From Nostoc sp. LEGE 12450 (GTDB lineage: Bacteria; Cyanobacteriota; Cyanobacteriia; Cyanobacteriales; Nostocaceae), in NCBI RefSeq assembly GCF_015206895.1, contig NZ_JADEXU010000009.1, positions 1 to 64,000 of the forward strand: a DNA stretch of 64,000 nt, read 5' to 3'. Numbering within the stretch: the first letter of the stretch is position 1; each line of letters opens with the position of its first letter. Below, piece after piece: positions 9,023-61,371 of the stretch. Under the pieces are notes generated by a model. It was not told where the DNA came from, searched no databases, and worked only from the letters and a program-made list of their open reading frames with translations. The translations under genes were made by a program, and so were the position numbers.

Positions 9023-11050
9023 CTAAAGCCTTACCCATTTCAATATCTTTGGGTTTTTGTTATAGCGATAGGTTAAGCCCTCCTTAGTAGTGATAGATTG
9101 GCCTTTGCTTGCCTTACTTCTAATGGTACCAATTGAATAGTTTACTAACATCTGCATTTCCTGATGAGAAAGTCCTTCTATTGGTTCTATTTCTACTGCT
9201 CTTTCGGGTTGGATTTGGGATTCTTCATTAGAAAAATCATCTATTTTGATTTCAGATTTTTGGGTAGAATTGATAGCAATTTCTTTTGCTTTTTGAAGCC
9301 GATAATCCTGCACAGTTAAAAGTTGCCAACTGGAATCTTGTGAAAGCTCTAAAACCCATTGATGATAATCAAACAGGCTTTCCCGATGCCCAACACTGAT
9401 AAAAGTTGTTTGAGTTGATTGTAACTGTTGATATAAACTTCCTTCATTATTCAAATCTAAAGCACTGGTTGCTTCATCTAAGATAGTGAAGCTAGGATGA
9501 GTAACTAACAGCCGTGCGAATGCAAGGCGTTGTTGTTCTCCCAACGATAATATATTTTCCCAAGGAACTTCTGTATCAAAGCCATCGACTCGACTTAGCA
9601 AGTTTTGCAAGTTGACTTGTTGCAAAACTTCTTTGAGTTCTCGATCGGTCATTTGACGATTTGTATTAGGATAGAGTAATTGTTCGCGTAAAGTTCCCAA
9701 AATTATGTAAGGACGTTGGGGCAAAAACAATACTTCTTCTAGGGGAGGTCGCATCAAACGACCAGTCCCCGCATTCCACAAACCAGCGATCGCTCTCAAC
9801 AGAGAACTTTTGCCTCGACCACTAGGCCCAACAATCAATAAACCTTCTCCACGTTGAACAGAAAGTGACAAATTCTCGACGATCACCTGCTCATAGTTTG
9901 GTGTTTGTAAGGTGACATTTTCAAAAGCAAAATAGTTTTCTTCTATTGTTTTAATAGTACTTACATTCTCAGGTTGTTTAGTGACTTCTTCTAATGCATC
10001 TGAAAACTCAGTTAAACGCTCAACGTAACTCGAAAAACTTCCGGAAGTGCCAAATTCAGCTATTAATTCTCCCAGAGCAGTAGCAAACAGATAGCTAGCT
10101 AAAGTAGCTTGTCCAACTTGTCCAAAATCAATTTCATTACTAATATATAACGGTGCTAGTAATAACAACGTAAAAAATTCGATGGCAGACTGATATCCTC
10201 TGTTAAAAATTTCATTATTTCTCTCCCAATTAATTTTGCGTATCGCACTTTTTAGGATATTACTAAATCTTCGTTGAATTATATTTGATTCTTGATTTTC
10301 TCCTCGAAAAAAAGCTATAGATTCGGCATGATTCCGAACATGAGTCAGTGCATAGTTGTAGTCTGCTTTAGATTCAAGTTCCTCTTGATTAATTTTATTT
10401 AATTCTTGATTTAAGTAAACAGCAATCAAATTGCCTAGAATCGTATAAACCAGCAAAGCAATAGCGATTTTTGGAAAAATTGACCAGAGAATTATTAAAA
10501 AAGTTGCCATTTGCAGTACTTTTTCTAGGAAAGTAGCTGAAAACCTGAGGGCATTACTAGGAAGAGGTTCAATTTCTTGAGATAAACGTTGATCTGGGTT
10601 ATCAATATCAGCTTTAAAATTAATTTTATAATAAGCACGATTGCTCAAATATTTATCTAAAATATGATTATTGAGCCATTGGTACCAATCAAGAGCAATT
10701 TTTTTTCTAAGAAATTTAGAAAATCCAACTAAGAGGCTTACGCAGACAAGCCCAACAGCATAAAGCCACACTATGTTAATGAACTTAGAATAATCTTTTT
10801 CTTGAATAATTATATCGATCAAATAACGATTAACGAAACTATTAAAAGCAGTTATACCTACAAGTGCGATTATTAATAATATCAACAGAATAAGCATTCC
10901 CCATGCACGAATCACATCTGAGAATGCTCTTTCCCCTGGCTTTGTTGGATACCAGTAAGGCCCTGCGATCGCTCTGACATTTTTCCAGAATTGGATAAAA
11001 TCTGAAACAGGATTTGTTCCGGGTTGAGGTTGAACAACTTGGGTTGGCAT
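9023..11050 (-). CDS. YddA/SbmA-type ABC transporter of the NRPS cluster
   Basis: This 675-residue half-transporter has an N-terminal ABC_membrane_2-type membrane domain (about residues 40-340, with hydrophobic segments beginning at MLILLILLIIALVG) and a C-terminal ATPase. Walker A is GPSGRGKSSLL, the signature is LSLGEQQRLAFAR, Walker B is FTILDEATSALD and the H-loop is ISVGHR, so all ATPase motifs are intact. After the ATPase comes a roughly 100-residue tail ending in a conserved module (SHQEMQMLVNYSIGTIRSKA ... YRYNKNPKILKWVRL). The copy at 58896-60923 has the same length, the same tail and long identical blocks. It lies downstream of the dioxygenase, on the same strand as the NRPS genes, so it probably exports their peptide. 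Confidence 0.85.
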   Translation of the reverse strand: MPTQVVQPQPGTNPVSDFIQFWKNVRAIAGPYWYPTKPGERAFSDVIRAWGMLILLILLIIALVGITAFNSFVNRYLIDIIIQEKDYSKFINIVWLYAVGLVCVSLLVGFSKFLRKKIALDWYQWLNNHILDKYLSNRAYYKINFKADIDNPDQRLSQEIEPLPSNALRFSATFLEKVLQMATFLIILWSIFPKIAIALLVYTILGNLIAVYLNQELNKINQEELESKADYNYALTHVRNHAESIAFFRGENQESNIIQRRFSNILKSAIRKINWERNNEIFNRGYQSAIEFFTLLLLAPLYISNEIDFGQVGQATLASYLFATALGELIAEFGTSGSFSSYVERLTEFSDALEEVTKQPENVSTIKTIEENYFAFENVTLQTPNYEQVIVENLSLSVQRGEGLLIVGPSGRGKSSLLRAIAGLWNAGTGRLMRPPLEEVLFLPQRPYIILGTLREQLLYPNTNRQMTDRELKEVLQQVNLQNLLSRVDGFDTEVPWENILSLGEQQRLAFARLLVTHPSFTILDEATSALDLNNEGSLYQQLQSTQTTFISVGHRESLFDYHQWVLELSQDSSWQLLTVQDYRLQKAKEIAINSTQKSEIKIDDFSNEESQIQPERAVEIEPIEGLSHQEMQMLVNYSIGTIRSKASKGQSITTKEGLTYRYNKNPKILKWVRL

Positions 11051-11230
11051 ATTTTTAAAATAAACTGAAATCTTTTATAATCAGATTTAATACTTTTTAG
11101 TGCTGAATAACAACTAATAAGTACCGAGTGAGAAATTACATATAGCACTCGATACTCAGAATCATGTTTGCACTTAGATATTTACTTGTGCTGGCTCGAC
11201 TTCATCCATTTTTAGGTTTAGGCGATCGCA

Positions 11231-12094
11231 TTATCTACAGGATGCAGGCTCGATAAGAGCTTTGTTGAATAGAGGCTGTAGTGGTGTGTAGTTGCGGCTC
11301 ACCAAGAATTCTGGTCTGGGTTGCCCCTTGAAGCTTGGTATATTGTTGACGCTATTATAAGTGATAATTAGGAGCCTGCGATCGTAAGGAGAAATGTTGG
11401 GTGCTGATCCGTGTACTAAATTACAGTGAAAGAAAAGGACAGAGCCTAAAGGGCCTTTTGGTGCAACGATACCTTTTTCAGTAGCTAGTTTAGCGATTGT
11501 TTCTTTCCCAAGAGAGTACTTGAGAGCAGCACTGACATTAGATTCCCAGTCATTTTTTTGACCATTAACTTCAGATGACTCTATTTGTCCTAAATGAACA
11601 AGGCTCTTTTTGTGAGAACCTGGAATGAAATACATAGGCCCGTTAAACTCATTACATTCATCCAAGAAAACAGCAACATTCAATGCTTTAGGGGATGGCA
11701 TACCATCTTCTTGATCCCAAAACACAAAGTCTTGATGCCACGGCCATATATCTCCTCCAAAAGCTGCTTTAAAGTTTATTTTAAATTGGTAAACATATAC
11801 ATCGCTATTGAGAATTTCACAGGCAGATGTTAGGAGGCTAGGGTGTCGAGTCAAGGAATCGAAAATTTCCGTGGTGGCGTGGCATCCATGAAGAGCGCGC
11901 ACTGTTTTGTTATCCTTTTCTAAAATCCGTCCTGGTATATCTCTTACTATCAAATCCTCAACAGCAGCGTGCATTGCCTTGACTTCTTTTGTCGAGAAAA
12001 GCTCTGGGATAAACAGTAGCCCATTTTCTTTGTAATATTCTATTTGGTCTTTGGTTAATTTCATGGTTTTATCTATCTGATTGGTATGGAACAT
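11231..12094 (-). CDS. phytanoyl-CoA-type Fe(II)/2-oxoglutarate dioxygenase
   Basis: The protein has 287 residues from the first start, or 277 if translation begins at the MKLTKDQ methionine (12064), where family homology starts. It shows the PhyH-family iron site: HxD in WPWHQDFVFW, and a distal His in NLVHGSAPN followed by an Arg-rich strand (DRRLLIITY) for 2-oxoglutarate. The WPWHQDF...EDGMP stretch resembles ectoine and proline hydroxylases of this superfamily. It follows the last NRPS gene by 128 bp on the same strand, so it is probably a tailoring hydroxylase acting on a residue of the peptide or on a free precursor. The substrate cannot be read from sequence. Neither possible start has a clear Shine-Dalgarno. 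Confidence 0.8.
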   Translation of the reverse strand: MFHTNQIDKTMKLTKDQIEYYKENGLLFIPELFSTKEVKAMHAAVEDLIVRDIPGRILEKDNKTVRALHGCHATTEIFDSLTRHPSLLTSACEILNSDVYVYQFKINFKAAFGGDIWPWHQDFVFWDQEDGMPSPKALNVAVFLDECNEFNGPMYFIPGSHKKSLVHLGQIESSEVNGQKNDWESNVSAALKYSLGKETIAKLATEKGIVAPKGPLGSVLFFHCNLVHGSAPNISPYDRRLLIITYNSVNNIPSFKGQPRPEFLVSRNYTPLQPLFNKALIEPASCR

Positions 12095-12222
12095 AATTAT
12101 TGTTTTGACGCTTCAAATTAACTCAGTAAATCGGCAGGAATATTGCAATGCTTTGTTCAATAGCGATCGCTCTTTTAAATAAAATGCTTTTTATGGGTAG
12201 AATCTGACGATCAAAAGAAGGT

Positions 12223-15200
12223 TCATACCCCGTCACCCTTAGTCTCCTGTGCTTCTTCGATGCAAGCTTTCAACCGTTCGGCTAAGACCTGAACATTTGG
12301 TTGATTCATCATCGTGACATGGTTGCCTGAGACAAAATGGATATCCACTGGCTCGGTAGAAAACTTGCTCCAGCCCCAGGTCAAATCCTGCAAAATCTCA
12401 GAAACTACTTCATTATTAGACTCTTCAACTGCGGGAGTTTCGCTAGCGCGCAAGAGGGTAATTCGGATTGGATAAACCTGTTGTGGTACATAATTAACTA
12501 GAGAGTTAGCTTTGAGCAATTGCACCATATTCTTAAGCTGCGTAATTTCATCATCGGGAGGCAAGATATCAGCATTTTTTAATCGTTCTAGAACGTATTT
12601 CAGTTGATCCTCCCAAACCAAACATTGAAGAATATCGTCAGAAATATCTAGTTCCTTTGCGTAAACAATTTCGATTGCGCCTGCCAATTGAGCTAGCCAT
12701 TTAACATTATCCCAATCAAAACCTTCTGGCTTTTCCTGATAAAAAGGTGCTGTAGTATCAAGAATGGCAATTAAAGCAACCTTATGGCCTTTGTGAAGTA
12801 ACTGCTGCGCCATTTCAAAGGCTAATTTACCGCCAAAAGAATGGCCTGCTAAAAAATACGGCCCCTGCGGTTGAACAACTAAGAGTGCTTGAATGTACTG
12901 GGCGGCTACATCCTCAACTGGAGTAATTGATTCCGATTCTCCAGAAAGAGCATTTGCTTGGAAACTGTAAAATGGTTGGTCTGAACCCAGACAACGCGCT
13001 AAGTCATATAAATAAAAAGGAGTACCAGCAGCTCCTGGAAGGCAAAACAAAGGTGGTTTGGAACCGTTCGGCTGAATTGCTACTAAGGGAGACCAAATTG
13101 AGGAATCCGAATCCGCTTGCACAATAGTTGCCAACTGTTCAATAGTTGGATTTTGGTAAAGGCTGGCTATAGGAATATCTTTACCAAACTGCTGTTTAAT
13201 TTGAGCCATTAAGTAAGGAGTTAAAAGGGAATGACCACCGAGGTCAAAGAAATTATCTTGTACTCCCACCTTGTCAACTTTCAAAATTCTTGACCAGATT
13301 TGCGTTAATTGCAGTTCTACTTGGCTACGTGGTGCAACAAATTTGTCTGTGTCACTGGTGTCAGCAGGTGCTTGCAATGCGCGACGGTCTACCTTACCGT
13401 TGGGCGTTAGCGGCAAGGAATCCAGAATGACTATTGCCGGAACCATGTAAGGCGGTAGTTTTGCTTTCAAGAACTGACGCAGTTGGCTAATTGTCGGTAC
13501 ACACTTTTCATGCGGTACTACATAGGCCACTAAACGTTTATCACCTGGGGTATCTTCCCGGACAATGGCCACAGTTGTTTGAATTTCCGGATGTTGATTG
13601 AGTACAGTTTCAATTTCTCCTGGTTCAACCCGAAATCCCCGAATTTTCACCTGATGGTCAATGCGACCCAGAAATTCAATATTGCCATCCGGTAAATAAC
13701 GCGCCAAATCCCCAGTTTTGTACAAGTAATCTTCAGCTTTAAAAGGATTAGGGATAAATTTTTGCTTTGTTAATTCCGGACGATTATAGTAACCATTAGC
13801 TAACCCAACGCCGCCTATGTATAGTTCACCAGTCACACCGATAGGAACTGGTTGGAAATTACTATCGACAATGTACATCTGCGTATTGTCAATAGGTTTT
13901 CCAATAGGAGGGTAAGCAGGCCAAGTATCTGGTGTACCTGAGAAAGCAAAAGCTGTTACCACATGGGTTTCGGAAGGCCCGTAATGATTATGCAGCGAAC
14001 AATTTTCCAAATTATTAAATAAATTAACAATGGGTCGAGTTACTTGCAGTTGTTCGCCGGTGGTAATAATCTCTGTAATATTTTTGAACAAATGTTTTTG
14101 CTGTCCGTATACCTCTGCCAATTGCTGAAGCACAACAACTGGAAGAATTACCTTCTGTATAGGTTTGCTTGCTAGGAAGTGAATTAAACTGTCCAAATCC
14201 AAACGCACAGTTTCGGAAACTATAAATAGCGTTCCGCCAGAACACCAAGCAGCAAACATTTCGTGAATGCTGGCATCAAAACTTAATGAGGCAAATTGAA
14301 GAACTCCCACTTCTGTTTGTAGAGTAGCTAAATGCCATTGAATCAAATTAGTGATTGCTCGATGGGGCAAAGCTACGCCTTTTGGTTTACCTGTAGAACC
14401 AGAGGTAAATATCACGTAAATTAAGTTACTAGGTTCTACACCAGTGATCAGATTTTCCTGGCTATATTGAGAAATTACTGCCCAGTCAGTATCTAAACAA
14501 ACCCTGCACTGAGCGGAGCCGAAGTGAACTTGCCCTTCATGTTGGGGTAGTTTGCTAATCAGTTGTTGTTGGGTAAGCAGCACCCTTACCTGAGTATCTT
14601 CGAGCATGAAATGCAAACGCTCAATTGGATAGTCTGGGTCAAGTGGAACATAAGCACCACCAGCCTTTAAAATCCCCAACAGTCCCACAACCATTTCTAA
14701 TGAGCGTTCTACACACAATCCGACTAGCACATCTGGTTTCACGCCCAAGGACTTCAAGTAGTGTGCTAATTGATTTGCCCGACAGTTTAATTCGTAGTAA
14801 GTAAGTTGTTGAGTCTCAAACTCTACCGCCACTGCATTTGGGGTACGCTCTACTTGCTCCTCAAACAACTGATGAATAAATTTATCAATTGGGTAATCAG
14901 TTTGGGTATTGTTCCACTCAACTAATAACTGATGCTTTTCTTTTGGTGTGATTAGTGACAATTGGGAAATTTGTTGCTGTGGGTTAGCAATAATTCCCTC
15001 AAGTAATGTTTGGAAATGTTTTAATAAACGAGCGATAGCACCATCATCAAATCGGCTGGTATCATAGTTAATCTTCACCAAGAATTGCTTACCAGGAGCA
15101 GCAATTACAGTTAGCGGATAATTAGTTTGTTCAATGCTGTGAATACTTTCTATAGAGAAACTGTAATTAGGCGATTTTACTGCCTCATCCACAGGATAAT

Positions 15201-18200
15201 TCTCAAAGACAACAATACTCTCAAATAAAGGCGTTCCTCTCTTGACTTCACTCCAGCCTTGAATATCTACCAATGAGTTATATGAGTATTGCTCAGACTC
15301 CACTTGTTGTGTTTGTAAATCTTTCAACAAAGCTAAGACTTGGGTATCATCTGTAACTTGCACTCGTACTGGCAAGGTATTGATAAATATCCCCACCATC
15401 GACTCAATGCCGACAATAGAGGGCGGACGACCAGAAACAGTAGCACCAAAAACTACATCTTTTTCTTGGTTGTAACGACTCAGTAGTAATGCCCAAGTCG
15501 CTTGCACCAAATTATTTATCGTTAGTTGATGCTGCCGTACAAAAGTCTGTAGGGTAGCTGTTGCTTGCTCTGTCAGTTGGATTTGTTGTTCGCTGTAACT
15601 AGAATTTAGCTGCTGTCGTTTTGACGATGGTTTATCAACTATCAAAGAAGTGGGTGAGGTAAAACCTTGGAGTTTTTCTCTCCAGAATTGTTCAGCTTGG
15701 GTTAAGTCTTGTTTCTGTAGCCAAGCAATATAGTTGCGATAGCTTTGGGCTGGTTGAACGACTACAGTTTCACCTTGAGAAATTTCTTGATAAAAATATA
15801 ATAAGTCTTTGAAAATCAAAGGCGTTGACCAGCCATCAAGCAATAAGTGATGAGAACTCCAAACGAATTGATAACTATCTGCACTCAATTGCATCAGGCT
15901 GAGGCTCATCAGTGGTGCTTGAGACAGTTGGAAACCCTGTTGTCGCTGTGAATGCAAGAAAAGCTCTAATTGCTGTTGCTGATCTTGTGCAGATAGTTGT
16001 TGCCAATCATGCGTTTGTAGGTTAAGATCCACCTGCCGATACACGATTTGAAGTGGCTGGGTTAATTGCTCCCAAACAAAAGCAGTCCGCAAGATTGAAT
16101 GCCGTGCTACCACTTTCTGCCAAGCTTGCTCAAAAGCTGCTACGTTCAACTCACCTTTTAAAGTAAAACTTAACTGCTCAAAATATACTCCTGAGTCTGG
16201 AGCATACAAACTTTCAAACAGCATCCCCTGCTGCATGGGAGAAAGTGGATAAATATCTTCAATATTCTTAGAGTTAGTTTTGCCTAAACTTGCCAACAGT
16301 TGGTCTAGTTCTAGCTGGTTTAGCTTCACCAAAGAGAAATCTGAAGGTGTATAACCTCCACTCTCAGGTGATGAACAATGAGCAATCAACTCTTGCAAGA
16401 TTTTAACAAAATCTTGCGCCAGAGTTGCGATCGTGGTTTGCTGGTGGACATTAGTGCTGTAAGTCCAACTGATTTGCAACCGTTCTCCAGCAATAATGCT
16501 GTTGATGTCTAATAAATGAGCGCGGTTGTTGAGCAAACTTTGGCTGTGTCCCGCAGACTCACTAGCCATCTGCATCCAAGAAGATGTATTGAGAAGTTGA
16601 TCGAATTGACCCAAATAATTAAAACTGATTTCTGCTTGCCTAAGTGCTTGGAGTTGAGCAGCAATTTCTGCATCCTGACTCAGATAGCGCAATAAGCCGT
16701 AGCCAATTCCTTTGTTGGGAATAGCACGCAGTTGTTCTTTGACAGATTTTAAGGCATCTGCTGGATTTTCTGTTGCTTGGAGTTCCACAAGTACAGGGAA
16801 AATGGTCGTAAACCAACCAATAGTGCGTGACAAATCCACGCCATCAACAATATCTTCTCGCCCATGACCTTCTAAATTGAACAGCACAGAGCTTGAGTTA
16901 GTCCATTTTGCCAAAACCAGCACCAAGGCAGTCAGTAGCACATCATTAATCTGAGTGTTGTAAGCCTTTGGCACATCTTGCAGTAAGGCACGAGTTTCAA
17001 TCTCATTTAATGACACTGATACTGTACTGGCAGACGCAACGGTGTTTGCCCCTTGTGTATAGTCAACTGGGATGGGAGGAACTGCGGCGCGAGATTCATT
17101 CAGCCAATAAGCCACTTCAGATTTGAGGGCTTGTGATTGTGCATAAGCTGTTAATTTTTCAGACCAATCCTTGAAAGAAGTTGTTTTGGCAGTCAGGGCA
17201 ATGGCTTTACCTTGAGCAAGTTGCTGGTAAGCTGTTTGTAAATCCTCTAATAAAATTCGCCAAGAAACACCATCAACTACTAAGTGATGGATAAATATTA
17301 GTAATCGCGCCCTTTTGTCAATACCCAGATGGAAAAAGGCGACTTGCACTAGATTTTCTGACAGATTCAAACTCGCCTGAAAGGAAGCCGCTTTAGTTTC
17401 AATAGCAGTTTGTTGCTCACTTTCTGGAAGTGCCGATAAGTCTATGTGAGAGAAGGCAACGCTGTTAGTCACAGCAGAGTGAATCTGCTGCCAAGTGGAC
17501 TCAGATTGTGTAAAACGTAGGCGCAGAGCATCGTGATGTACTAGCAATTGCTGCAATACTTGCTTTAATAACTCTGCCTTGAGGTCAGATGGTACTGAGA
17601 GCAGAAATGATTGATTAAAGTGGTGCGGCTCTGGTAAATTTTGCTCGAAGAAATAGTGTTGAATTGGTGTTAGAGGTAATGTCCCTGTCACTAATCCTTG
17701 TTCTATGTGGATAACACTCGCTATGTTTTCCACTGTTGCTAATTCTGCAATTGTTTGATGTGCAAATAATTGCTTGAGAGTCAGTTGCAATCCTGTTTGC
17801 TTGGCTCTGCTGATGATTTGAATACTGAGAATAGAATCCCCGCCAAGTTCAAAGAAGTTATCATGTATGCCCACTTGCTCTAGTCTGAGAACTTCTACCC
17901 AAATCTGCGCTAGCATTTCTTCAATTTGATTGCGTGGGGCTACAAAACTAACTTCCAGTTCGCCACGAGACTCTGGCGCAGGCAAAGCACGGCGGTTTAT
18001 CTTTCCGTTTGGCAAAAGGGGTAGAGACTCAAGCAGCACAAAAGCATGAGGAATCATGTGTTGTGGCAGTTGACTAGAGAGGAAAGAGCGCAATTGGCTA
18101 ATTGTTGGTGTTTGTCCTAGATGTGGTACTGCGTAGGCGACTAGGCGTTTATCACCGGGAATATCTTCACGAACAATTACACAACAAGCTTGTACATCTT

Positions 18201-30749: not shown

Positions 30750-30776
30750 ATAATTATTACCTTCATACTGTCAACT

Positions 30777-52868: not shown

Positions 52869-53087
52869 TTACAGATTCGGTCTTGCTACATTTGCATAAA
52901 TAGCGTTGATCCTGGCTTTAATTCCATATCCTCTTAGACTATTTCCTACAACCGTTATTAGACCAAACATATTTATACCTCCTACGATACCAAACGGAGT
53001 TCCCAGCGCTGTAAGTGTGGCTGCGATCGCAGTATAACTAACTCCTGATATTACTGATGATTTTACTCTTTTTTGATAGAGACTAAT
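52869..53087 (-). pseudogene. divergent or decayed copy of the glycine-rich small protein
   Basis: An open frame of 72 codons runs on the minus strand with no ATG, GTG or TTG near its upstream end. The first ATG is at 52970, preceded by an AGGAGG-like sequence. Its residues from TAIAATLTALGTPFG through GYGIKARINAIY line up without gaps with residues 30-75 of the protein at 58289-58693. By hand count 18 of 46 positions are identical, including most glycines, the Pro and the closing IY. It ends soon after, lacking the soluble tail of that protein. It is either a truncated paralogue, a gene using a rare ATT start, or a 33-residue peptide from the internal ATG. It lies between the PKS1 start and the graspetide promoter. 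Confidence 0.5.
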
Positions 53088-53190
53088 TTATTGTTGAAAC
53101 AAACTTGTTTTCTTTAAATTAACATACTTATAATTTCAATTTAAGCATAATCTCATTTTTCTAGAGAAAATGCAACAGCATTTAAAATAA

Positions 53191-53306
53191 TTAACTTAAG
53201 AAACTTAAGACAGATGTTTTTCCTTAACTGCCACTTAACTTTCCTAACTTTCTTAAGTTTCTTAACTGTCTTAGAATCATTATTTCTTAACTGTCTTAAC
53301 TGACAT
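53191..53306. promoter_or_regulatory. 9-bp-phased repeats and 15-bp inverted repeat in the divergent region
   Basis: TAA/TAG cores of TTAACTGTC-like units occur at 53225, 53236, 53245, 53254, 53263, 53272, 53288 and 53297, mostly exactly 9 bp apart. A perfect inverted repeat joins TTAAGAAACTTAAGA (53196-53210) and TCTTAAGTTTCTTAA (53251-53265). The array lies 70-185 bp upstream of the graspetide precursor and between the two divergent clusters. Two more units at 52717-52729 sit just upstream of PKS1. Operator iterons for a shared regulator are plausible but unproven. The rest of 52697-53376 holds the small glycine-rich frame and AT-rich DNA. Confidence 0.5.
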
Positions 53307-53364
53307 TGAAAAAATATTTAATTAATGATATATATTTAAGTTGAAAAACAAATTAATTTTTTTC

Positions 53365-53370
53365 AAGGAG
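53365..53370 (+). promoter_or_regulatory. Shine-Dalgarno of graspetide precursor
   Basis: AAGGAG ends 6 nt before the ATG at 53377. It is the clearest ribosome site in the operon and fixes the start of this short gene. Confidence 0.8.
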
Positions 53371-53376
53371 AAATCT

Positions 53377-53511
53377 ATGCCTATAAACACAGTCAAAACA
53401 GTGAATGTTGTAGCGGTACCATTCTTTGCGCGTTTCTTGGAAGAGCAAGCTACTGAAGGGACAGAGGTTCCTTGGACTTACAAGTTTCCTTCAGATTTGG
53501 AAGATAAATAA
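53377..53511 (+). CDS. mdnA: microviridin-type graspetide precursor peptide
   Basis: The gene encodes 44 residues. The leader carries PFFARFLEEQ at 15-24, the conserved ligase-recognition helix of microviridin precursors. The core near the C-terminus reads VPWTYKFPSDLEDK at 31-44 and matches T-x-K-x-P-S-D-x-E-(D/E). By family rules Thr34 should form an ester with Asp40, Ser39 an ester with Glu42, and Lys36 an amide with Asp43. Two features differ from the best-known members: Leu41 replaces the usual Trp of PSDWE, and the amide acceptor is Asp instead of Glu. Microviridins are typically serine-protease inhibitors. The residue before Lys that sets specificity in the family would be Tyr35 here. 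Two matching ATP-grasp genes follow. There is a single core and no double-Gly cleavage site. Confidence 0.92.
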   Translation: MPINTVKTVNVVAVPFFARFLEEQATEGTEVPWTYKFPSDLEDK

Positions 53512-53882
53512 TTTATTTACTCTTCTACATCTGAAAGTATAGCCGTAGCCACATAGGTTAGGACTTAATGGCAAACAAGCGTAAATGCTAAGAATAGCAA
53601 TAGTTTTACCTCCTGCCTCCTGCCCTTTCTTCTCGGAAAGATACCTTGTAATTGGCTGAATCATAATTTAATAAAGTAGCAGTTATCAAATAACTGAAAA
53701 CTACTCTTAGAGAGGCGATGGCGCAGAGCGCCCGCCAGAGGCGATCGCTTTCATATTACCTTATCCATAACATGGAGATGATTGCTTTTTTAGACCCCTA
53801 GATTCTTAAAAAATCCTGGTTTATAGAAAGCAATTTTTCGCTATTTCTTAATAGCTACCTCCTAAAATTATCAAAAAAATAT
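53512..53882. other. gap between precursor and ligases
   Basis: No gene is seen. There is a CCTCCTGCCTCCTGCCC tract near 53609 and a GC-rich repeat cluster around 53710-53752 (GGCGATGGCGCAGAGCGCCC and GCGATCGC), typical of dispersed repeats in this window. A processing site or terminator for a short precursor transcript is possible. Confidence 0.4.
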
Positions 53883-54875
53883 ATGCATCTGTCTCGTGAT
53901 GTTGTTTTATTAATCACCCACAGTGGTGATTTCTTCACTATAGATAGAGTGGCAGAAGCCTTATCAAAAAAAGGGGTGCAACCATTTCGTCTAGATACTG
54001 ATAAATTTCCTCTAGAAGTGCAATTAACAGCACATTTTGATAAGTCTAAAAGCTACCACACTATAGAATGTAACAACCACTCTATCAGCACAGAGCAGGT
54101 GCAAGCTGTGTGGATGCGCCGTATTTGGGAACCAAAACTGAGTCAAGAATTAGCGCCAAAGTTCCGAGAAGCCTGCATTAGAGAATCACAAGCAACTTTA
54201 GATGGTTTTTGGGACAGCCTGAAGGGAGCTACATGGGTAGATAATTTAGAGCGGATAGATTATGCAAGTAACAAGCTGCGTCAACTGCGGATTGCGTCTG
54301 AAGTAGGTTTTGTTATTCCCCAGACTCTTGTCACCAACAAAGCCCAAGCAGCACGAGAGTTTTTCGGGCAAGTCAAGGGCAAAATGGTGAGCAAGCTCTT
54401 AACTCCTCTTTCCCGCAGTATGGAAGCTAACTCCTCGTTTTTTCTGTACACCAGCATCGTCAAGGAAGAAGACTTACAAGATGCCGAGTCACTGCGCTAT
54501 TGCCCAATGGTTTTTCAAGAGCAAATTCCAAAGCAACAGGAATTACGGGTGGTGTATGTGAATGGTAATGTATTTGTGGGGGCGCTAAATGCAGATGTGT
54601 ATGCAGCAGCCAAAGTTGATTGGCGTAAACCTGGTGTTGATACTGGCGCATGGCAACATCACCAGCTTCCTGATGAAGTAGTTAGCCGTATCAAAGCCTT
54701 TATGGGTAAATTTGGGCTGTTGTTTGGAGCGTTAGATTTCATCGTCACACCATCAGGGGAATACGTCTTTTTGGAAATCAACCCTGTGGGAGAGTGGGGA
54801 ATGTTGGAGAAAGATTTAGACTTGCCTATTGGAAGTGCGATCGCAGATGCCCTACTTCAAAGAAAGAATGAATAA
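53883..54875 (+). CDS. mdnB: ATP-grasp ligase, lactam-forming type (MdnB/MvdC)
   Basis: This 330-residue protein opens with VVLLITHSGDFFTIDRVAEAL and has PFRLDTDKFPLEVQ, RRIWEPKLS, MVSKLLTPLS, CPMVFQEQIPKQQELRVVYV and, at the ATP-grasp active end, FGALDFIVTPSGEYVFLEINPVGEWGMLE, with Mg-binding Glu and Asn. These blocks match the microviridin ligase that makes the Lys-to-carboxylate amide, as opposed to the ester ligase encoded by the next gene. It acts in the cytoplasm on the precursor at 53377 after the two ester bonds are made. No strong Shine-Dalgarno precedes the ATG. It starts 371 bp after the precursor and lies directly before the second ligase. Confidence 0.9.
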   Translation: MHLSRDVVLLITHSGDFFTIDRVAEALSKKGVQPFRLDTDKFPLEVQLTAHFDKSKSYHTIECNNHSISTEQVQAVWMRRIWEPKLSQELAPKFREACIRESQATLDGFWDSLKGATWVDNLERIDYASNKLRQLRIASEVGFVIPQTLVTNKAQAAREFFGQVKGKMVSKLLTPLSRSMEANSSFFLYTSIVKEEDLQDAESLRYCPMVFQEQIPKQQELRVVYVNGNVFVGALNADVYAAAKVDWRKPGVDTGAWQHHQLPDEVVSRIKAFMGKFGLLFGALDFIVTPSGEYVFLEINPVGEWGMLEKDLDLPIGSAIADALLQRKNE

Positions 54876-54953
54876 TCAAAAATTTAATATTTGATACTAG
54901 CCTGTGGTAAGCCACCCAAAGGGTGTCTACATACTTCACACCTCATACTTTTT

Positions 54954-55931
54954 ATGACCGTATTAATAGTCACGTTTAGTAAAGACAACGAAAGCATTCC
55001 TCTAGTCATCAAAGAAATTGAGGCTAGAGGAGAAAAAGCATTTCGGTTTGACACAGACAGATATCCCACCGAAGTCAAGCTAGATATTTACTCTGGCGAT
55101 ACTGAACGGGTAATGATTACTGATGGCGAACAAAAGTTAGATTTGAGTGAAGTCTCCTCAGTTTGGTATCGGCGGATGCGCTACGGACAAAAAATCCCCG
55201 ACTCAATGGACAAGCAATACAGAGATGCGTCAATTAACGAATGTCGCGCCACAGTCAGGGGTATGATTGCCAGCCTTCAGGGATTCCACTTCGATAAAAT
55301 GTCCAATGTGGATCGGGCTAATAATAAGCAACTACAATTGCAAATTGCACGAGAAGTTGGTCTTGTAACTCCACGTACTCTGACTTCAAACAATCCAGAA
55401 GCAGTCAAGCAATTTGCTCAAGAGTGTAGCCAAGGTATAGTTACCAAGATGCTTTCTTCCTTTGCTATTTATGACGATCGGGGGCGAGAAAACGTTGTGT
55501 TTACCACTCCAGTTACAAATGACGATCTGGAGAATATGGAAGGGCTACGTTTTTGTCCGATGACGTTTCAAGAAAATGTGCCCAAGGCGCTGGAGTTGCG
55601 GACAACTATTGTCGGACACCGCGTATTTACTGCCGCAGTAGATTCCCAAAGCTTGTCAGGATCTACTTACGACTGGCGCAAAGAGGGGAGAGCTTTAGTT
55701 AAAAATTGGCAACCCTACGACTTGCCAGAAGATATTGAGAAAAAACTGCTCAAACTGATGGCTTATTTTGGCTTAAACTATGGAGCAATTGATATTATTG
55801 TCACCCCCGATGGTCGGTATGTATTCCTCGAAGTTAACCCAGTCGGGGAATTTTTTTGGATGGAGATATATTCACCACACTACCCCATTTCGCAGGCGAT
55901 CGCAGAAGTATTACTGACTAATAAAAATTAG
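54954..55931 (+). CDS. mdnC: ATP-grasp ligase, lactone-forming type (MdnC/MvdD)
   Basis: I place the start at 54954 (MTVLIVTFSKDNESIPLV), which is where the family begins. A longer frame from 54891 adds 21 residues encoded by repeat-like DNA. The 325-residue product has FRFDTDRYPTEVKLD, SSVWYRRMRYG, GMIASLQGFHFDK, VTKMLSSFAIYD, CPMTFQENVPKALELR and GAIDIIVTPDGRYVFLEVNPVGEFFW, the signature blocks of the microviridin ester-forming ligase. It should close the Thr34-Asp40 and Ser39-Glu42 esters of the precursor. The gene is 78 bp after mdnB in the same direction. No Shine-Dalgarno is evident, so its translation may depend on coupling. Confidence 0.9.
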   Translation: MTVLIVTFSKDNESIPLVIKEIEARGEKAFRFDTDRYPTEVKLDIYSGDTERVMITDGEQKLDLSEVSSVWYRRMRYGQKIPDSMDKQYRDASINECRATVRGMIASLQGFHFDKMSNVDRANNKQLQLQIAREVGLVTPRTLTSNNPEAVKQFAQECSQGIVTKMLSSFAIYDDRGRENVVFTTPVTNDDLENMEGLRFCPMTFQENVPKALELRTTIVGHRVFTAAVDSQSLSGSTYDWRKEGRALVKNWQPYDLPEDIEKKLLKLMAYFGLNYGAIDIIVTPDGRYVFLEVNPVGEFFWMEIYSPHYPISQAIAEVLLTNKN

Positions 55932-56063
55932 GTACTTGAGCCTTGTATATATTTATTTTCTTCTATTTTGAAAGGTGTTATTGAGATTTCACTATTAAGT
56001 TTATTAATACTAAATTTTTTATTTAAGATTATAAAATTATTGATATTTGGAGATTAAATCCTT

Positions 56064-58160
56064 GTGATAAACCTAGTAAATACACAAACAGTTTTGACAT
56101 TTGATGGGGTAAAGGATTATATAGATTTTGGTAGAAACGATATTGGCGGCGTTTTCGCTCAAGGAAGTTCAGCTTTTACGGTTTCAGGATGGGTAAATCC
56201 ACATGAACTAACAAATAAAGCCACTAGTTACGGAACGCGCAATGTATTTTTTGCCCGTTCTTCAGAGAGATTCAGCGATAATTTTGAATTCGGCATCAGT
56301 GAAACAGGAAACCTAGATGTCTACATAGATGAAAGTGTTAGCAAAGGTATCAAAACCTTCGGGCAAGGAGAATTAACTATAGAACAATGGCACTTTTTTG
56401 CTATTGTTTTTAATAGTGGCCAACTAGCCGTATACCTTGACGATCGTGAATATAACGATTCTCTTAGAGGTTCATCTTTAAACAAAGCCACAAGTTCTAT
56501 AACTTTGGGAGCAACGTTACACAAACAAGTCTATTTCAAAGGACAATTAGCAAACATTAGCGTTTGGAATTATCCCTGTACACAAGCACAAATCCAGACT
56601 CATCGTTGTGGGCTAATAGTCGGAGATGAAGAAGGATTGGTGGCTTACTGGAAATTAGACGATGGGCAAGGTACAACTGTCAAAAACCAAACTGGAAAGT
56701 CCTATCAAGGAAATTTTCGTGGTAATCCTATTTGGACTTTAGCAGAAATTCCATTCGCAACACAATCATCAAATCCAGTTATATTTGCAGCAGAATTATC
56801 TAATCAAGAAGATATTCAAGAAGAGATCCAGACTGAGACAGCAGTTATTCCTGAAGAAAATGTCTCACCACTAACCACAAGTCTATTAGCAGCAACGGTA
56901 TCGTTAGTAAGCGACGACGAAAACCAACCAAAGCAAATTCAACAGACAGAAACAAAGAGCGAAGAATCCGAGATTATTCCAACTGCGATCGCTCTTGGGC
57001 CACATGATGAGGAAACCAAGACAGACCAAACTGAAGATCCCGTCAATATCCAACAAGTACAAATATTAACTCAGGAGGAATCGCCAGAAACCATGAATAC
57101 AAAAGCCCGTCCCAAATATAAAATACTTTCCATTGATGGAGGCGGTATTCGGGGCATTATTCCTGCATTACTCCTAGCAGAAATTGAAAGGCGGACACAA
57201 AAACCTATATTCAGTTTGTTTGATTTAATTACTGGCACTTCCAGTGGCGGAATTTTAGCACTTGGACTAACTAACCCACGATTAAGTTCCGATGTATCTG
57301 ATAACTTGCCAGTAGCTGAATACACTGCTGAGGATCTCCTACAGTTATTTATTGAGTATGGGGTAGAAATATTTTATGAGCCGTTGTTTGAAAGGCTACT
57401 TGGCCCGTTAGAGGATATATTTCTTCAGCCAAAATATCCTTCAGAAAGCAAAGAAGAAATTTTAAGAAAATATTTTGGTAATGCCCTTATAGAAAATAAT
57501 CTCAAAGAAGTTTTTGTAACGAGTTACGATATCGAGCAACGAATTCCGATATTCTTTACAAACAAACTAGAAAAACAGCAAATAGAATCTAAGAATTTTC
57601 AGAAGTTATGTGGTGGTTTTTCGCTTTTAGATGCAGCATTAGCAACTAGTGCCACTCCGACTTATTTTGCTCCTCATCGGCTTGTAAACCCCCACAATAG
57701 CGGCATCGCCTATACTTTAATCGATGGTGGAGTATTTGCTAATAATCCAGCCCATTTAGCTATTTTAGAAGCACAAATTAGTAGTAAACGAAAAGCCCAA
57801 AAAGTCCTGAATACAGAAGATATTTTAGTAGTTTCTTTAGGTACAGGTTCGCTGACGAGTGTTTACCCTTATAAAGAAGTCAAAAATTGGGGACTCTTAC
57901 AATGGGGAAGACCACTTTTAAATATTGTGTTTGACGGTGGTAGTGAAGTGGTAGCTGGAGAATTAGAACAGTTATTTGAACCTAGTGATAAAGAAGCTAA
58001 AAGTTTTTATTATCGCTTTCAAACATTGTTAGATAGTGAACTAGAAGAAATAGATAATACCAAACTTCAAAATACTCGTCAGCTACAAGCTATAGCCCAT
58101 CGATTAATATCTAACAAAAGTCAACAAATCGATGAACTGTGTAGTCTTTTGTTGGGCTAA
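56064..58160 (+). CDS. LamG-patatin fusion (lectin-like plus lipid acyl hydrolase)
   Basis: This 698-residue protein starts at GTG 56064, with GGAG 11 nt upstream. Residues about 8-225 form a LamG/concanavalin-like fold: TVLTFDGVKDYIDFG, FTVSGWVNP, WHFFAIVFNSGQLAVYLD and GLVAYWKLDDGQG. An acidic, Gln/Glu-rich linker spans about 235-345. Residues about 350-690 are a patatin-like phospholipase with an intact active site: oxyanion loop DGGGIRG, nucleophile elbow GTSSGG and Asp motif DGGVFANNPAH. It should hydrolyse lipid acyl esters. No signal peptide is seen. It follows the lactone ligase by 132 bp in the same direction and precedes a small membrane protein and the exporter. It is not part of the known microviridin enzyme set. 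It may be a resident of the operon with its own role, such as membrane attack, signalling or defence. Confidence 0.85.
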   Translation: MINLVNTQTVLTFDGVKDYIDFGRNDIGGVFAQGSSAFTVSGWVNPHELTNKATSYGTRNVFFARSSERFSDNFEFGISETGNLDVYIDESVSKGIKTFGQGELTIEQWHFFAIVFNSGQLAVYLDDREYNDSLRGSSLNKATSSITLGATLHKQVYFKGQLANISVWNYPCTQAQIQTHRCGLIVGDEEGLVAYWKLDDGQGTTVKNQTGKSYQGNFRGNPIWTLAEIPFATQSSNPVIFAAELSNQEDIQEEIQTETAVIPEENVSPLTTSLLAATVSLVSDDENQPKQIQQTETKSEESEIIPTAIALGPHDEETKTDQTEDPVNIQQVQILTQEESPETMNTKARPKYKILSIDGGGIRGIIPALLLAEIERRTQKPIFSLFDLITGTSSGGILALGLTNPRLSSDVSDNLPVAEYTAEDLLQLFIEYGVEIFYEPLFERLLGPLEDIFLQPKYPSESKEEILRKYFGNALIENNLKEVFVTSYDIEQRIPIFFTNKLEKQQIESKNFQKLCGGFSLLDAALATSATPTYFAPHRLVNPHNSGIAYTLIDGGVFANNPAHLAILEAQISSKRKAQKVLNTEDILVVSLGTGSLTSVYPYKEVKNWGLLQWGRPLLNIVFDGGSEVVAGELEQLFEPSDKEAKSFYYRFQTLLDSELEEIDNTKLQNTRQLQAIAHRLISNKSQQIDELCSLLLG

Positions 58161-58174
58161 ATCAGATTTCTTAC

Positions 58175-58202
58175 ATCTTGCACCAGTTAGTTGGTGAAAG
58201 AT
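58175..58202 (+). terminator. hairpin after the patatin gene
   Basis: An 11-bp stem with one mismatch (ATCTTGCACCA/TGGTGAAAGAT) and a 6-nt loop is followed by ATAAGATTTTTAATTT. A second perfect 8-bp hairpin (AATTTCTT/AAGAAATT) lies at 58214-58234. Together they look like a rho-independent terminator or attenuator. Confidence 0.55.
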
Positions 58203-58288
58203 ATAAGATTTTTAATTTCTTCACGAAAGAAATTAGTAATGACTCTCTTAGTCATGTTTTCACTTTATAAGGATTGTAGGTAAGTACA

Positions 58289-58693
58289 ATGGATGAACTC
58301 GTCAAAAAAATTTCTGGTTTAGGCCTTCCTGGCATACTTTTCGTGATCGCAACGGGTGCATCAGGGGGTAATGTCGCTGCCGTTGTCGCTATGCTTTCAA
58401 CGCTGGGCGGGCCTTTAGGCCTCTTAGGAGGTTTAGGCTTACTTGGGCTGGTAGCCGTTTTAGGGGAATATATAGCGGGATTTGGAATTGAAAACATTCT
58501 TAAGCTCATCTATACAGAACGTAGCAAAACTGAATCTGTCAGATTTCTTCTCAAAGAAATTCAAGAATTGCCCATTTCAGATGAGTTAAAACTCAAACTG
58601 AAACATCATATTAGCCCAGTAGTCGTTACTGAGCCTGACCAAGGCCCTTTTCCGAGAACAGTCGAAATTGTTGATGAGGAACCATTGACCTAG
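58289..58693 (+). CDS. small glycine-rich membrane protein, unknown function
   Basis: This 134-residue protein is not a family I can name. Residues about 10-70 are strongly hydrophobic and glycine-rich (LGLPGILFVIATGASGG, STLGGPLGLLGGLGLLGL), compatible with two membrane helices packed by glycine zippers, as in holin-like or bacteriocin-like proteins. Residues 75-134 are charged and soluble (RSKTESVRFLLKEIQELP), ending in EIVDEEPLT. It lies between the patatin gene and the exporter. A shorter relative of its membrane part is found at 52869-53087 on the other strand. Possible roles are immunity or membrane partner to the patatin, transporter accessory, or pore-former. Confidence 0.7.
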   Translation: MDELVKKISGLGLPGILFVIATGASGGNVAAVVAMLSTLGGPLGLLGGLGLLGLVAVLGEYIAGFGIENILKLIYTERSKTESVRFLLKEIQELPISDELKLKLKHHISPVVVTEPDQGPFPRTVEIVDEEPLT

Positions 58694-58716
58694 TACCGTA
58701 AGGCGGAAGTCAAAAG

Positions 58717-58762
58717 GAGCCAGTGCGCCCTTGCGGCGAGCCACTCTTGTTGCAACTGGCTC
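58717..58762. repeat. dispersed palindromic repeat GAGCCAGT...ACTGGCTC
   Basis: Perfect 8-bp ends (58717-58724 and 58755-58762) enclose a GC-rich middle beginning GCGCCCTTGCGGCGAGCC. The form is that of a repeat common in Nostocales intergenic DNA. It could fold into a stable hairpin after the small protein gene. Confidence 0.55.
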
Positions 58763-58813
58763 TCAAAAGTCGAAAAGCTTAGAAAACAAGCTTTTGAACT
58801 TATCTAAAAGGAA

Positions 58814-58853
58814 AAATGGCCTTTGAGTCTAACTTAATTCTCAAAGGCCATTT
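58814..58853. terminator. perfect 14-bp hairpin before the exporter
   Basis: AAATGGCCTTTGAG (58814-58827) pairs completely with CTCAAAGGCCATTT (58840-58853) across a 12-nt loop, followed by AAAAATT. It lies 42 bp upstream of the exporter ATG, so it either ends the upstream transcript or attenuates the exporter. Confidence 0.65.
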
Positions 58854-58895
58854 AAAAATTACTAGTGTAATTAGTAACGGCTACATTTTTAGAAT

Positions 58896-60923
58896 ATGCA
58901 AACTCCATCTGTGCGTGAGCAAAACACAACAAATCCTTTTTCAGCCTTGATTCAATTTTGGCAGGATGTGAAAGTAGTTGCTCAACCTTATTGGTATCCA
59001 ACAAAACCAGAAGGAAGAGCCTTTTCAGATGTGATTCGCTCATGGGGAATGCTCATTTCCTTAGTATTATTAATAGTCGTAATTGTCGGTGCAAATGCTG
59101 CAAATAGTTACTGGAATCGCTATGTAATTGATATTGTTATTGAACAGAGAGACCTTGATAAATACAATAGTACTTTATGGCTGTCCAGTCTCATTATTGT
59201 TGGGATGGTCTTATTAGTAACTCTTTTGAGATATGTCAGAAAAAAAATAATTCTTGACTGGTACAAATGGCTAAATCTCCATGTTATAGAAAAATATTTA
59301 AGTAATCAAGCTTATTATAAAATCAATTTTAAATCTGATATAGATAATCCAGATCAACGCTTATCCCAAGAAATAGAACCTATTACTAGTATTGGCTTGA
59401 GATTCTCATCTTCTTTACTAGAAAAATCTTTAGAAATGGGAAGTTCTTTGATAATTCTCTGGATAGTTTCTTCACAAATCGCAATTTATTTAGTTATTTA
59501 TACAATTGTAGGTAATTTAATAGCTATTTACTTGAATCAAGGAATAAATAAAGTTAACCAAGAAGAACTTGCATTTAAAGCAGATTTTGCCTATTGCTTA
59601 ACTCATGTTCGTAATCACGCTGAATCAATCGCTTTTTTTCAGGGGGAAAATGAAGAATTAAATATAATTCAGCGTCGATTTAATAATGTTTTAAAAACTG
59701 CTGAACGTCGACTGAATTTGGAGAGGGGACAAGATGCTTTTGGCAGAGCATATCAGTCTGCCATTAGCGTATTTTCGATGTTTATTCTTACACCTTTATT
59801 TCTTCAAGATCAAATTGATTATGGACAAATAAACCAAGCTAGTTTTGCTTGCTTTATGTTTTCTAATGCTTTAGGAGAACTAATATCTGAGTTTGGAATT
59901 TCAGGACGATTTTCTAGCTATGTAAAGCGTTTAGCAGAGTTTTCAGATGCGCTACAGGCTGCTAGTAAACAACCAGAGAACGTAAATACTATTAAAATTA
60001 TAGAAGAAGAACGTTTAGCTTTTGAGAATGTCACTTTACAAACGCCAAATTATGAACAGGTAATCGTCGAAAACTTGTCACTAACTGTTGGGCCAGGAGA
60101 AGGTTTATTGATTGTTGGCCCTAGTGGTAGGGGTAAAAGTTCTTTGTTGAGAGCGATCGCTGGTTTGTGGAATGCAGGAACTGGTCGTCTCGTGCGTCCT
60201 CCTCTAAAAGAAGTATTATTCTTACCCCAACGCCCTTATATCATTTTAGGGACTTTGCGCGAACAGTTGCTCTATCCTCACACAGACAGGAAAATGAGCG
60301 ATCGCGAACTTGAACACATTTTGCAACAAGTTAACCTGCAACACTTACTTACCCGCGTAGATGGCTTTGATACTGAAGTTCCTTGGGAAAATATATTGTC
60401 GTTAGGAGAACAACAACGCCTCGCTTTTGCACGGCTATTAATTACACATCCTAGTTTCACTATCTTAGATGAAGCAACGAGTGCTTTAGATTTAAACAAC
60501 GAAGATAGTTTATATCAACAGTTACAATCAACGAAAACAACTTTTATCAGTGTTGGACATAGAGAAAGTTTATTTAATTATCATCAATGGGTTTTGGAAT
60601 TGTCACAAGATTCCAACTGGCAACTTCTTCGTGTACAAGATTATCGGTTACAAAAAGGAAAACAAATTGGCATAAAGGCTCCTGAAAAGTGCAAAATCAC
60701 AATAGATGTTACACCCATTAACAAATCTAAAAGCCAACCAGAAATATTGACAGATATAGGCACAGGTGTAGGGCTTTCTCATAAAGAAATGCAAGCATTG
60801 ACAGACTCTAGTATTAACACTGTCAGAAGCAAGGCTAGCCTTGGTAAGTCTATTACTACTAAAGATGGTTTCACCTACCGCTATGAGAAAGACCCGGAGG
60901 TGTTGAAATGGATAAGAACTTAG
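58896..60923 (+). CDS. YddA/SbmA-type ABC transporter of the graspetide operon (MdnE-like role)
   Basis: This 675-residue half-transporter has an ABC_membrane_2-type membrane domain (first helix near MLISLVLLIVVIVG, residues about 50-330) and a complete ATPase: Walker A GPSGRGKSSLL, signature LSLGEQQRLAFAR, Walker B FTILDEATSALD and H-loop ISVGHR. The tail ends with SHKEMQALTDSSINTVRSKA and YRYEKDPEVLKWIRT, a module shared with the paralogue at 9023-11050. Microviridin clusters normally include an ABC transporter that exports the peptide and is thought to tether the ligases, so this copy is the natural candidate. No peptidase C39 domain is present, so leader removal must be by another enzyme. 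Confidence 0.85.
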   Translation: MQTPSVREQNTTNPFSALIQFWQDVKVVAQPYWYPTKPEGRAFSDVIRSWGMLISLVLLIVVIVGANAANSYWNRYVIDIVIEQRDLDKYNSTLWLSSLIIVGMVLLVTLLRYVRKKIILDWYKWLNLHVIEKYLSNQAYYKINFKSDIDNPDQRLSQEIEPITSIGLRFSSSLLEKSLEMGSSLIILWIVSSQIAIYLVIYTIVGNLIAIYLNQGINKVNQEELAFKADFAYCLTHVRNHAESIAFFQGENEELNIIQRRFNNVLKTAERRLNLERGQDAFGRAYQSAISVFSMFILTPLFLQDQIDYGQINQASFACFMFSNALGELISEFGISGRFSSYVKRLAEFSDALQAASKQPENVNTIKIIEEERLAFENVTLQTPNYEQVIVENLSLTVGPGEGLLIVGPSGRGKSSLLRAIAGLWNAGTGRLVRPPLKEVLFLPQRPYIILGTLREQLLYPHTDRKMSDRELEHILQQVNLQHLLTRVDGFDTEVPWENILSLGEQQRLAFARLLITHPSFTILDEATSALDLNNEDSLYQQLQSTKTTFISVGHRESLFNYHQWVLELSQDSNWQLLRVQDYRLQKGKQIGIKAPEKCKITIDVTPINKSKSQPEILTDIGTGVGLSHKEMQALTDSSINTVRSKASLGKSITTKDGFTYRYEKDPEVLKWIRT

Positions 60924-60939
60924 CGATTTGAGGATAAAC

Positions 60940-61371
60940 ATGAGTAATAGCAAACTTTCTGATATAGAAATAGAAATTTTACTATTGGGTAAATGGCGTT
61001 TTAATACGTTTTCAGAAAAAATCACTATTGAATTTAAAGATGATATGACTTATGAGCAAACTAGGGTTCAAATATTGCTTTTCTCCAAGCCAAAGGAACT
61101 AATAACAGGTAATAAATTTACTGGGGTATGGTACGTCAGCAAAAAAAAATTGTATTTAAATGTTAAAAATATGCCAAAATCATTTTTTAATTTCCGGATA
61201 CCATTAGCTTTTAAGATTTCTATTGCAGATATCATAGCTACTTTAGGTTCTGTGTTTATGCCAGAAATTTATGAAGTTATTACAATTAATAGTTCGAAAT
61301 TTCTCATAAAGGATAAAGAGCAATCAATTATGGGGACAAAAATAAATAAAAACCCAAGTTTTGGATTATAA
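60940..61371 (+). CDS. small lipocalin-like protein, unknown function
   Basis: I start it at ATG 60940, preceded by GAGG with 6-nt spacing. A TTG at 60928 also opens the frame. The 143-residue product begins MSNSKLSDIEIEILLLGKWRF. The LLGKWRFNTFSEKITIEFKDDMTYEQTRV pattern, with short alternating beta strands and GVWYVSKKKLYLNV, resembles lipocalin-like or calycin-type small domains that open with GxW. No signal peptide is seen. It follows the exporter by 16 bp, so it is probably co-transcribed. It could bind a hydrophobic ligand or the product. The family is uncertain. Confidence 0.65.
   Translation: MSNSKLSDIEIEILLLGKWRFNTFSEKITIEFKDDMTYEQTRVQILLFSKPKELITGNKFTGVWYVSKKKLYLNVKNMPKSFFNFRIPLAFKISIADIIATLGSVFMPEIYEVITINSSKFLIKDKEQSIMGTKINKNPSFGL

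Follow-up and report, generated by a model that had tools for sequence, protein, structure and literature searches.

A 64,000-nucleotide stretch of the Nostoc sp. LEGE 12450 genome (contig NZ_JADEXU010000009.1; hereafter the window, which is part of a 90-kb contig of a draft genome of 8.8 Mb) carries two peptide operons that point away from each other: a polyketide synthase-nonribosomal peptide synthetase (PKS-NRPS) operon running from 52696 to 9023 on the minus strand, and a microviridin operon running from 53377 to 60923 on the plus strand. The starts of the first PKS gene (PKS1, 52696) and of the microviridin precursor gene mdnA (53377) lie 0.68 kb apart, bearing out an earlier note on this DNA, which had described two peptide pathways diverging from about 0.7 kb. 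The intergenic region contains 9-bp repeats (CTTAANNNN), and such direct repeats (CTTAACTGT) occupy the same register relative to a −35 TTG in the predicted microviridin and NRPS promoters. We think it probable that the locus is a rearranged peptide island in which both operons are transcribed from one class of repeat promoter and activated together, the best candidate activator being AAA35a, a protein encoded in the flank.

On the microviridin side, the 9-bp units facing mdnA were read at 53252..53303 (plus strand), the last of them lying 11 bp ahead of the −35 TTG, and the predicted promoter (repeats and TTGAAA-N17-TATATA) spans 53286..53339. On the minus strand, two units facing the PKS-NRPS operon (CTTAAGTTT) were read at 53195..53213; since CTTAAG is palindromic, their orientation rests on the flanking bases. 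The predicted PKS-NRPS promoter, with a degenerate proximal unit and TTGCAT-N17-GATTAT, follows at 53147..53194 (minus strand). These predictions came from two separate promoter models, one for mdn promoters (R2) and one for NRPS promoters (R3), both built with the window and its relatives L151 and L155 left out. The best R2 match in the window was the mdnA promoter (54.2 bits, E = 8.6e-16), and the best R3 match was the PKS1 promoter (27.3 bits, E = 2e-7).

The same arrangement recurs at related loci. At least two units in the orientation of mdnA were found within about 500 bp in 34 of the 41 named mdnA loci, as compared to 47 of 4595 control slices taken from these loci and counted on either strand. 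The full register, in which the last unit starts 11 bp before the −35 TTG and a 17-bp spacer follows, was seen in 31 of 42 mdnA loci (the 41 named ones and the window), and again at 15 of 18 NRPS-side starts, most of which had been picked because an array was already seen there. Units on the opposite strand occur in 7 of the 41 named loci (L151, L153, L155, L157, L168, L174 and L199). These include all five in which an NRPS start directly faces mdnA (L151, L153, L155, L157 and L168), each with units on both strands; L159, L174 and L198 also belong to the divergent class, with an exporter gene in between, and L159 and L198 have no opposite units near mdnA. Three-unit arrays numbered 66 in the 2.63 Mb of retrieved loci, a set that is biased to peptide clusters and in which at least 20 named loci duplicate others. 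A strict version of the pattern has two sites in the strain's own genome, both before NRPS genes; the window array is too degenerate and was therefore not counted under it.

The candidate regulator AAA35a (5085..6500, minus strand) combines an HTH (helix-turn-helix)-like domain at about residues 14-84 with an AAA_35 NTPase (PF14516, E = 1.4e-138), and a second AAA_35 protein, AAA35b (PF14516), is encoded next to it at 7079..8308 on the same strand. Of the features of a STAND-type activator, AAA_35 is clear. The N-terminal domain is conserved and was modelled by AlphaFold 2 as helical (pLDDT 79.6); its matches to HTH profiles all fall below the cut-offs, and its best Foldseek matches are mostly XRE-type HTH domains, at E = 0.02 or worse. 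A weak match to our repeat-promoter model R1 lies upstream of AAA35b (8578-8641, minus strand; 12.9 bits, E = 0.0076), and autoregulation of the AAA35b-AAA35a pair is possible.

Across 145 genomes of the family, 53 had both the array and AAA35a, 11 the array only, 9 AAA35a only and 72 neither (Fisher p = 3.5e-19 with genome counts that are inflated by shared ancestry; p = 7.5e-8 at the genus level). The odds ratio with the array was 38.5 for AAA35a, 12.7 for the exporter and 4.8 for the microviridin ligase MvdD, and the link between AAA35a and the array held in strata with and without the exporter or MvdD. A reversed control pattern showed no such link (odds ratio 0.48). Matches to R1 at E = 1e-3 or better were found in 20/20 AAA35a-positive and 0/20 AAA35a-negative genomes, and in 14/14 positive ones when the six genomes that fed the model were set aside; another genome set gave 11/11 and 1/4, respectively. 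The two are also close to each other, with 15 of 43 AAA35a genes lying within 5 kb of an R1 match (0.37 expected) and 10 of 22 within 5 kb of an array. The strain's own genome encodes 15 AAA35a relatives at E = 1e-20; a repeat site lies 0.7 kb from the other close full copy (contig C270), and on contig C95 the NRPS promoter has a 95% identical fragment beside it. No small conserved gene was seen between AAA35a and the promoter facing it in genomes G033 and G078. In locus L259 (genome G111, about 636.7-637.3 kb), a short frame that by eye resembles the start of actin lies downstream of the repeat promoter facing AAA35a.

From these patterns we propose AAA35a as the best candidate regulator of both operons. 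In the suggested mechanism, the PKS-NRPS block would have flipped in place in this lineage, next to the microviridin operon, so that the two operons came to diverge. AAA35a, through its HTH-like domain and STAND-like NTPase, would respond to an inducing signal by binding the 9-bp repeats that adjoin the −35 box, and the bound activator would turn on both operons as well as other genes for secreted products.

Joint regulation had been suggested in the earlier note. The repeats, their register, their presence on both strands and the link to AAA35a argue for it, whereas a promoter core common to both sides does not: the core reads TATAT on the mdnA side and in most cases GANNAT on the NRPS side, R2 finds no PKS1 promoter in the window at E = 1, and R3 finds the mdnA promoter only via the repeats (17.7 bits, E = 2.1e-4), so that the shared part consists of the repeats and their register and not of the whole core. 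Other observations weigh against common activation as well. The PKS1-side repeats in the window are degenerate, and the CTTAAG units of L155, L168, L199 and the window read on both strands, so that clear minus-strand units are limited to L151, L153 and L157. The full pattern is missing in 11 of the 42 mdnA loci, 11 genomes with an array have no AAA35a, the HTH fold match of AAA35a is weak, and arrays also precede genes outside peptide clusters. RNA-seq of N. punctiforme lends mixed support: according to the portion of PMC7660261 consulted, nosA/C/D and the microviridin-cluster genes Npun_F2189, F2191 and F2192 went up together, without a rise in nosB, the nos exporter, mvdD or F2193.

We consider it unlikely that the two operons are ordinary neighbours in a known kind of peptide island and that the 9-bp repeats are inert or slippage-prone intergenic short tandem repeats, as others in cyanobacteria are. 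Such islands have indeed been published (in the sections of PMC7232259 used here), array copy number differs between strains, and some arrays stand before unrelated genes or a transposase or have no close gene. In addition, the three-unit pattern was found in 64 of the 145 genomes as against 71 for the reversed control, and its mere presence is therefore weak evidence. What speaks against inert repeats is the fixed register to the −35 TTG and 17-bp spacer, the orientation of the units, which mostly follows the gene, the link to one regulator-like gene that is missing for the control pattern, and the position of the arrays: 20 of the 64 listed sites (in 25 genomes) have a microviridin, exporter or glycine-rich marker no more than 5 kb away, where 0.31 would be expected. 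Possible, though on the doubtful side, is that the repeats are a real promoter element read by some other regulator, with AAA35a as a passenger travelling on the same islands. The closeness of AAA35a to the arrays would by itself yield co-occurrence, shared ancestry inflates the genome counts, and genome G006, the exception in the second R1 set, has R1 matches (E = 8.8e-9) without AAA35a at E = 1e-110. However, the association persists where a genome lacks the exporter or lacks MvdD, it extends across genera (27 of 56 have both, and the link is kept in most of the 11 mixed genera), and AAA35a has a conserved HTH-like domain.

A further alternative, put forward in the earlier note, is that the two exporter genes arose by duplication inside a composite locus. 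The note had described paired 675-residue transporters with the same C-terminal module, and this description was confirmed: exporter A of the PKS-NRPS operon (9023..11050, minus strand) and exporter B in the MdnE position of the microviridin operon (58896..60923, plus strand) are each 675 residues long and 69% identical over 674 residues, the last 50 included, and their genes form a 77% DNA inverted repeat. Equal length, identity and inverted placement would fit a local duplication. Yet two copies elsewhere in the same genome (contig C95, 79%; contig C100, 74%) resemble exporter A more closely than exporter B does, and exporter B in turn has a 90% identical relative on contig C224. When 86 exporters were labelled by the position of their genes and placed in a midpoint-rooted tree, a branch with SH-aLRT support of 100 separated 34 upstream or NRPS-side exporters from 48 exporters downstream of MvdD, together with 3 Planktothrix rows located upstream there and the unlabelled C224 row. 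When a distant outgroup was used, B rows were nested inside A, with labels that are circular in coming from the best BLAST match. Under either rooting the A/B split is older than the locus and spans several families. The exporters belong to two old sister subfamilies, and each operon has one of its own kind. The two transporters thus fall in distant clades, the outcome that the earlier note had named as speaking against its proposal. Because the position-labelled tree and the own-genome identities separate A from B, which are not each other's nearest relatives, we reject duplication within the locus as extremely improbable.

The earlier note had also assigned the exporters to a YddA/SbmA type. 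The YddA half of this assignment holds, as both proteins combine PF06472 with an ATPase domain (PF00005; ABCD/YddA type). SbmA is a permease without an ATPase domain, and since A and B both have one they are not of the SbmA type; the SbmA_BacA model had no match in either exporter in the Pfam scan. The nearest solved structures are ABCD transporters and 6tqe/6tqf.

The downstream genes of other arrays indicate what else might be controlled in this way. The repeats were rejected as a mark exclusive to peptide clusters, as these genes include a Tle1-like phospholipase, an LTD protein, a lectin, PA14, a lipase, RPE65 and a transposase. In the strain's own genome, R1 matches outside the training set precede the Tle1-like phospholipase gene (C107) and, on C270, a gene for a 183-residue protein that begins with a signal-like stretch. 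An R1 match likewise accompanies the look-alikes of this protein in G006 and G142. Two other matches (C150 and C375) lack a gene close downstream or are located at the end of a contig. Two-unit sites precede a terpene synthase gene (geosmin type, by eye), an AMP-binding/reductase gene, an I66 peptidase inhibitor gene and again an LTD protein gene. A further sample, selected for the absence of a marker, comprised 20 sites from seven other genomes; what lies downstream of them includes genes for a terpene synthase, AMP-binding, PatG, lectin and lipase proteins, as well as a transposase, unknowns or no close gene. In Calothrix NIES-4105 (G115, 1608-1640 kb), eight R1 matches at E = 1e-3 or better fall within about 31 kb beside a microviridin operon; one precedes a fatty acyl-AMP-ligase-like gene (named by eye).

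Tentatively, with the case for and against close to balanced and the latter slightly ahead, we suggest an undescribed Nostocales regulon in which AAA35a, as an HTH-STAND NTPase, would read arrays abutting the −35 box and jointly induce microviridin, diverse PKS/NRPS products and secreted enzymes and inhibitors. Literature searches on the repeat letters and related terms, with thin coverage of subscription journals, found no description of the 9-bp element. The TAACTGA direct repeats (MacGregor 2015, PMC4679880) are likewise short, intergenic and cyanobacterial, and some lie just upstream of genes; however, their unit is 7 bp and the abstract of that paper reports no functional pattern among the genes downstream, whereas the window element is 9 bp and keeps a fixed promoter register. 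Identity with the TAACTGA heptamer is ruled out by the 9-bp period. Pho-box and SARP-type activator sites are likewise direct repeats just upstream of the −35 or −10 box. They repeat every 11 bp, and the units in the window every 9 bp.

The pairing of the two pathways is itself recurrent, and such operons stand next to each other in many Nostocales. From 138 named MvdD loci we kept the best 80, of which 62 had at least 8 kb of upstream sequence, and scored an upstream NRPS/PKS gene where a match of at least 400 residues to one of the window's own was found. Such genes lie just upstream in 23 of the 62 microviridin loci; 13 of these cases have the same direction and the other 10 are divergent. 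The 39 loci whose MvdD is at least 75% identical to that of the window account for all 23 cases, and the remaining 23 loci for 0. Microviridin genes adjoin NRPS genes here as in the islands of PMC7232259, and together with these linked loci this upholds the earlier view that the adjacency is not due to chance. In the sections of PMC7232259 used here, the islands are spumigin-anabaenopeptin-microviridin in Aphanizomenon/Dolichospermum and anabaenopeptin-microviridin-cyanopeptolin in Planktothrix; they have other NRPS products, and those sections give no exporter tree, promoter or regulator. As regards the anabaenopeptin or spumigin NRPS of those islands, the content seen in the window is PKS-NRPS.

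Nostoc XA010 and Nostoc NMS4 share both the divergent form and the first PKS (95-96%) with the window; UCD121, Peltigera cyanobiont 210A and CCCryo 231-06 have the divergent form with another starter. In Nostoc NMS2 (G142, contig C181; L160), AAA35a (94%), AAA35b (87%) and the microviridin operon flank the NRPS block in the same places and orientation, the block itself is reversed relative to the window, and its starter is an AMP-binding-KR-carrier protein. The simplest history suggested by this comparison is an in-place flip of the NRPS block plus an exchange of the first module. The earlier note had named the occurrence of either cluster alone, with unrelated neighbours, as counting against its view, and half of that picture is seen: this NRPS type was found without nearby MvdD in G111, G105, G136 and G035, and other related genomes have microviridin genes without NRPS upstream. 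The strain's own genome has a second microviridin locus (L089 on C100 and L090 on C224), in which the exporter pair is apparently split over two contigs; the assembly breaks both MvdC and patatin into two open frames each. A metagenome-assembled genome of Thiotrichaceae (L204, JADGDF010000019.1) has a microviridin-type MvdC/MvdD pair (MvdD 75%), which suggests transfer from cyanobacteria or mis-binning.

The PKS-NRPS operon encodes, in order, PKS, NRPS, PKS, NRPS, NRPS, PhyH and the ATP-binding cassette (ABC) exporter A. Both PKS, the first NRPS, PhyH and the exporter were assigned by Pfam; the last two NRPS were read from repeat families and the translation only. PKS1 (45953..52696) is predicted to form a KS-AT-DH-cMT-KR-ACP module; it is followed by a three-module NRPS with a TubC docking domain (35118..45956) and a KS-AT-cMT-ACP module (30828..35114). 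An FkbM methyltransferase sits inside one adenylation module of the first NRPS (Pfam), and may methylate the growing chain. Next come an NRPS with three adenylation domains (20871..30749), an NRPS with two (12223..20874) and, read by eye, a C-terminal thioesterase, and a PhyH-type dioxygenase (11231..12094; PF05721, E = 1.7e-34). All lie on the minus strand.

On the plus strand the order is microviridin precursor, MvdC, MvdD, LamG-patatin, a glycine-rich protein of 134 residues and ABC exporter B. The mdnA gene (53377..53511; NF033738, 33.3 bits against a cut-off of 26, scanned from 53383) encodes a PFFARFL leader motif and a core, ...TYKFPSDLEDK, that fits TxKxPSD. It is followed by ATP-grasp ligases of the MvdC (MdnB) type (53883..54875; NCBIfam TIGR04185, 528 bits, cut-off 425) and the MvdD (MdnC) type (54936..55931; NCBIfam TIGR04184, 572 bits, cut-off 475). 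The precursor with leader and core motifs and the two ligases identify the operon as a microviridin (graspetide) cluster. No Pfam match to a GNAT acetyltransferase (MdnD), known from some clusters only, was found among the scanned operon genes; N. punctiforme microviridins show extension in place of acylation, according to the portion of PMC7660261 consulted. The LamG and patatin phospholipase gene (56064..58160; PF01734, PF13385) matches by position Npun_F2191, a putative lipase. A protein of 147 residues (60928..61371, plus strand), from a comparison of loci, often follows exporter B. In Calothrix NIES-4105, a repeat promoter precedes the gene of what by eye is a look-alike of this protein.

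The locus of N. punctiforme is among the closest described systems. In the portion of PMC7660261 consulted, its nos and microviridin genes are neighbours in numbering (Npun_F2181-F2193), with NRPS/PKS genes near microviridin genes, a lipase, a transmembrane protein and an ABC transporter, as in the window; its precursor peptide differs from the window's at 3 of 44 residues. Unlike the window, the N. punctiforme clusters are in tandem (by gene numbers), the NRPS is nos, and that portion names no shared promoter element. It also reports that lipid droplets were absent from a strain with plasmid-borne F2189-F2192, for which the lipase may be a simpler explanation than the microviridin offered there.

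The earlier note had seen a glycine-rich small protein on each side of the promoter region, which was only partly upheld. The intact gene lies in the microviridin operon (58289..58693, plus strand); its hydrophobic product had no Pfam match, and its AlphaFold 2 model (pLDDT 57) was too poor for a structure search. On the other side, an intergenic 58-codon stretch (52878..53051, minus strand), located in the presumed leader of the PKS-NRPS operon, matches residues 24-81 of this protein at 34% identity (E = 7.6e-8); in the window its frame stays open over 72 codons. In Nostoc NMS4 the orthologous stretch differs by indels of 1, 4 and 1 bases, which break the frame, so that the second copy is most likely a decayed remnant and an intact second gene is unlikely. 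Relatives of the intact gene also occur near other NRPS clusters, and in G111 beside a patatin gene; in Microcystis (L205-L207), a distant relative (45-47%) lies between the microviridin genes and NRPS or exporter.

The island at this locus is of a known kind and its arrangement is new; its promoter class and likely regulator are what deserves to be followed. A common promoter would help explain why unlike peptide pathways are found together, with no need for shared export or local duplication. In culture, many peptide clusters of cyanobacteria stay silent, and a regulator is known for few of them; a shared promoter mark with one candidate regulator would allow waking several clusters and predicting which are co-expressed. 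If the proposed regulon is real, the unrelated natural products of one genome would form a single co-induced chemical arsenal, whose output may be tuned by repeat number.

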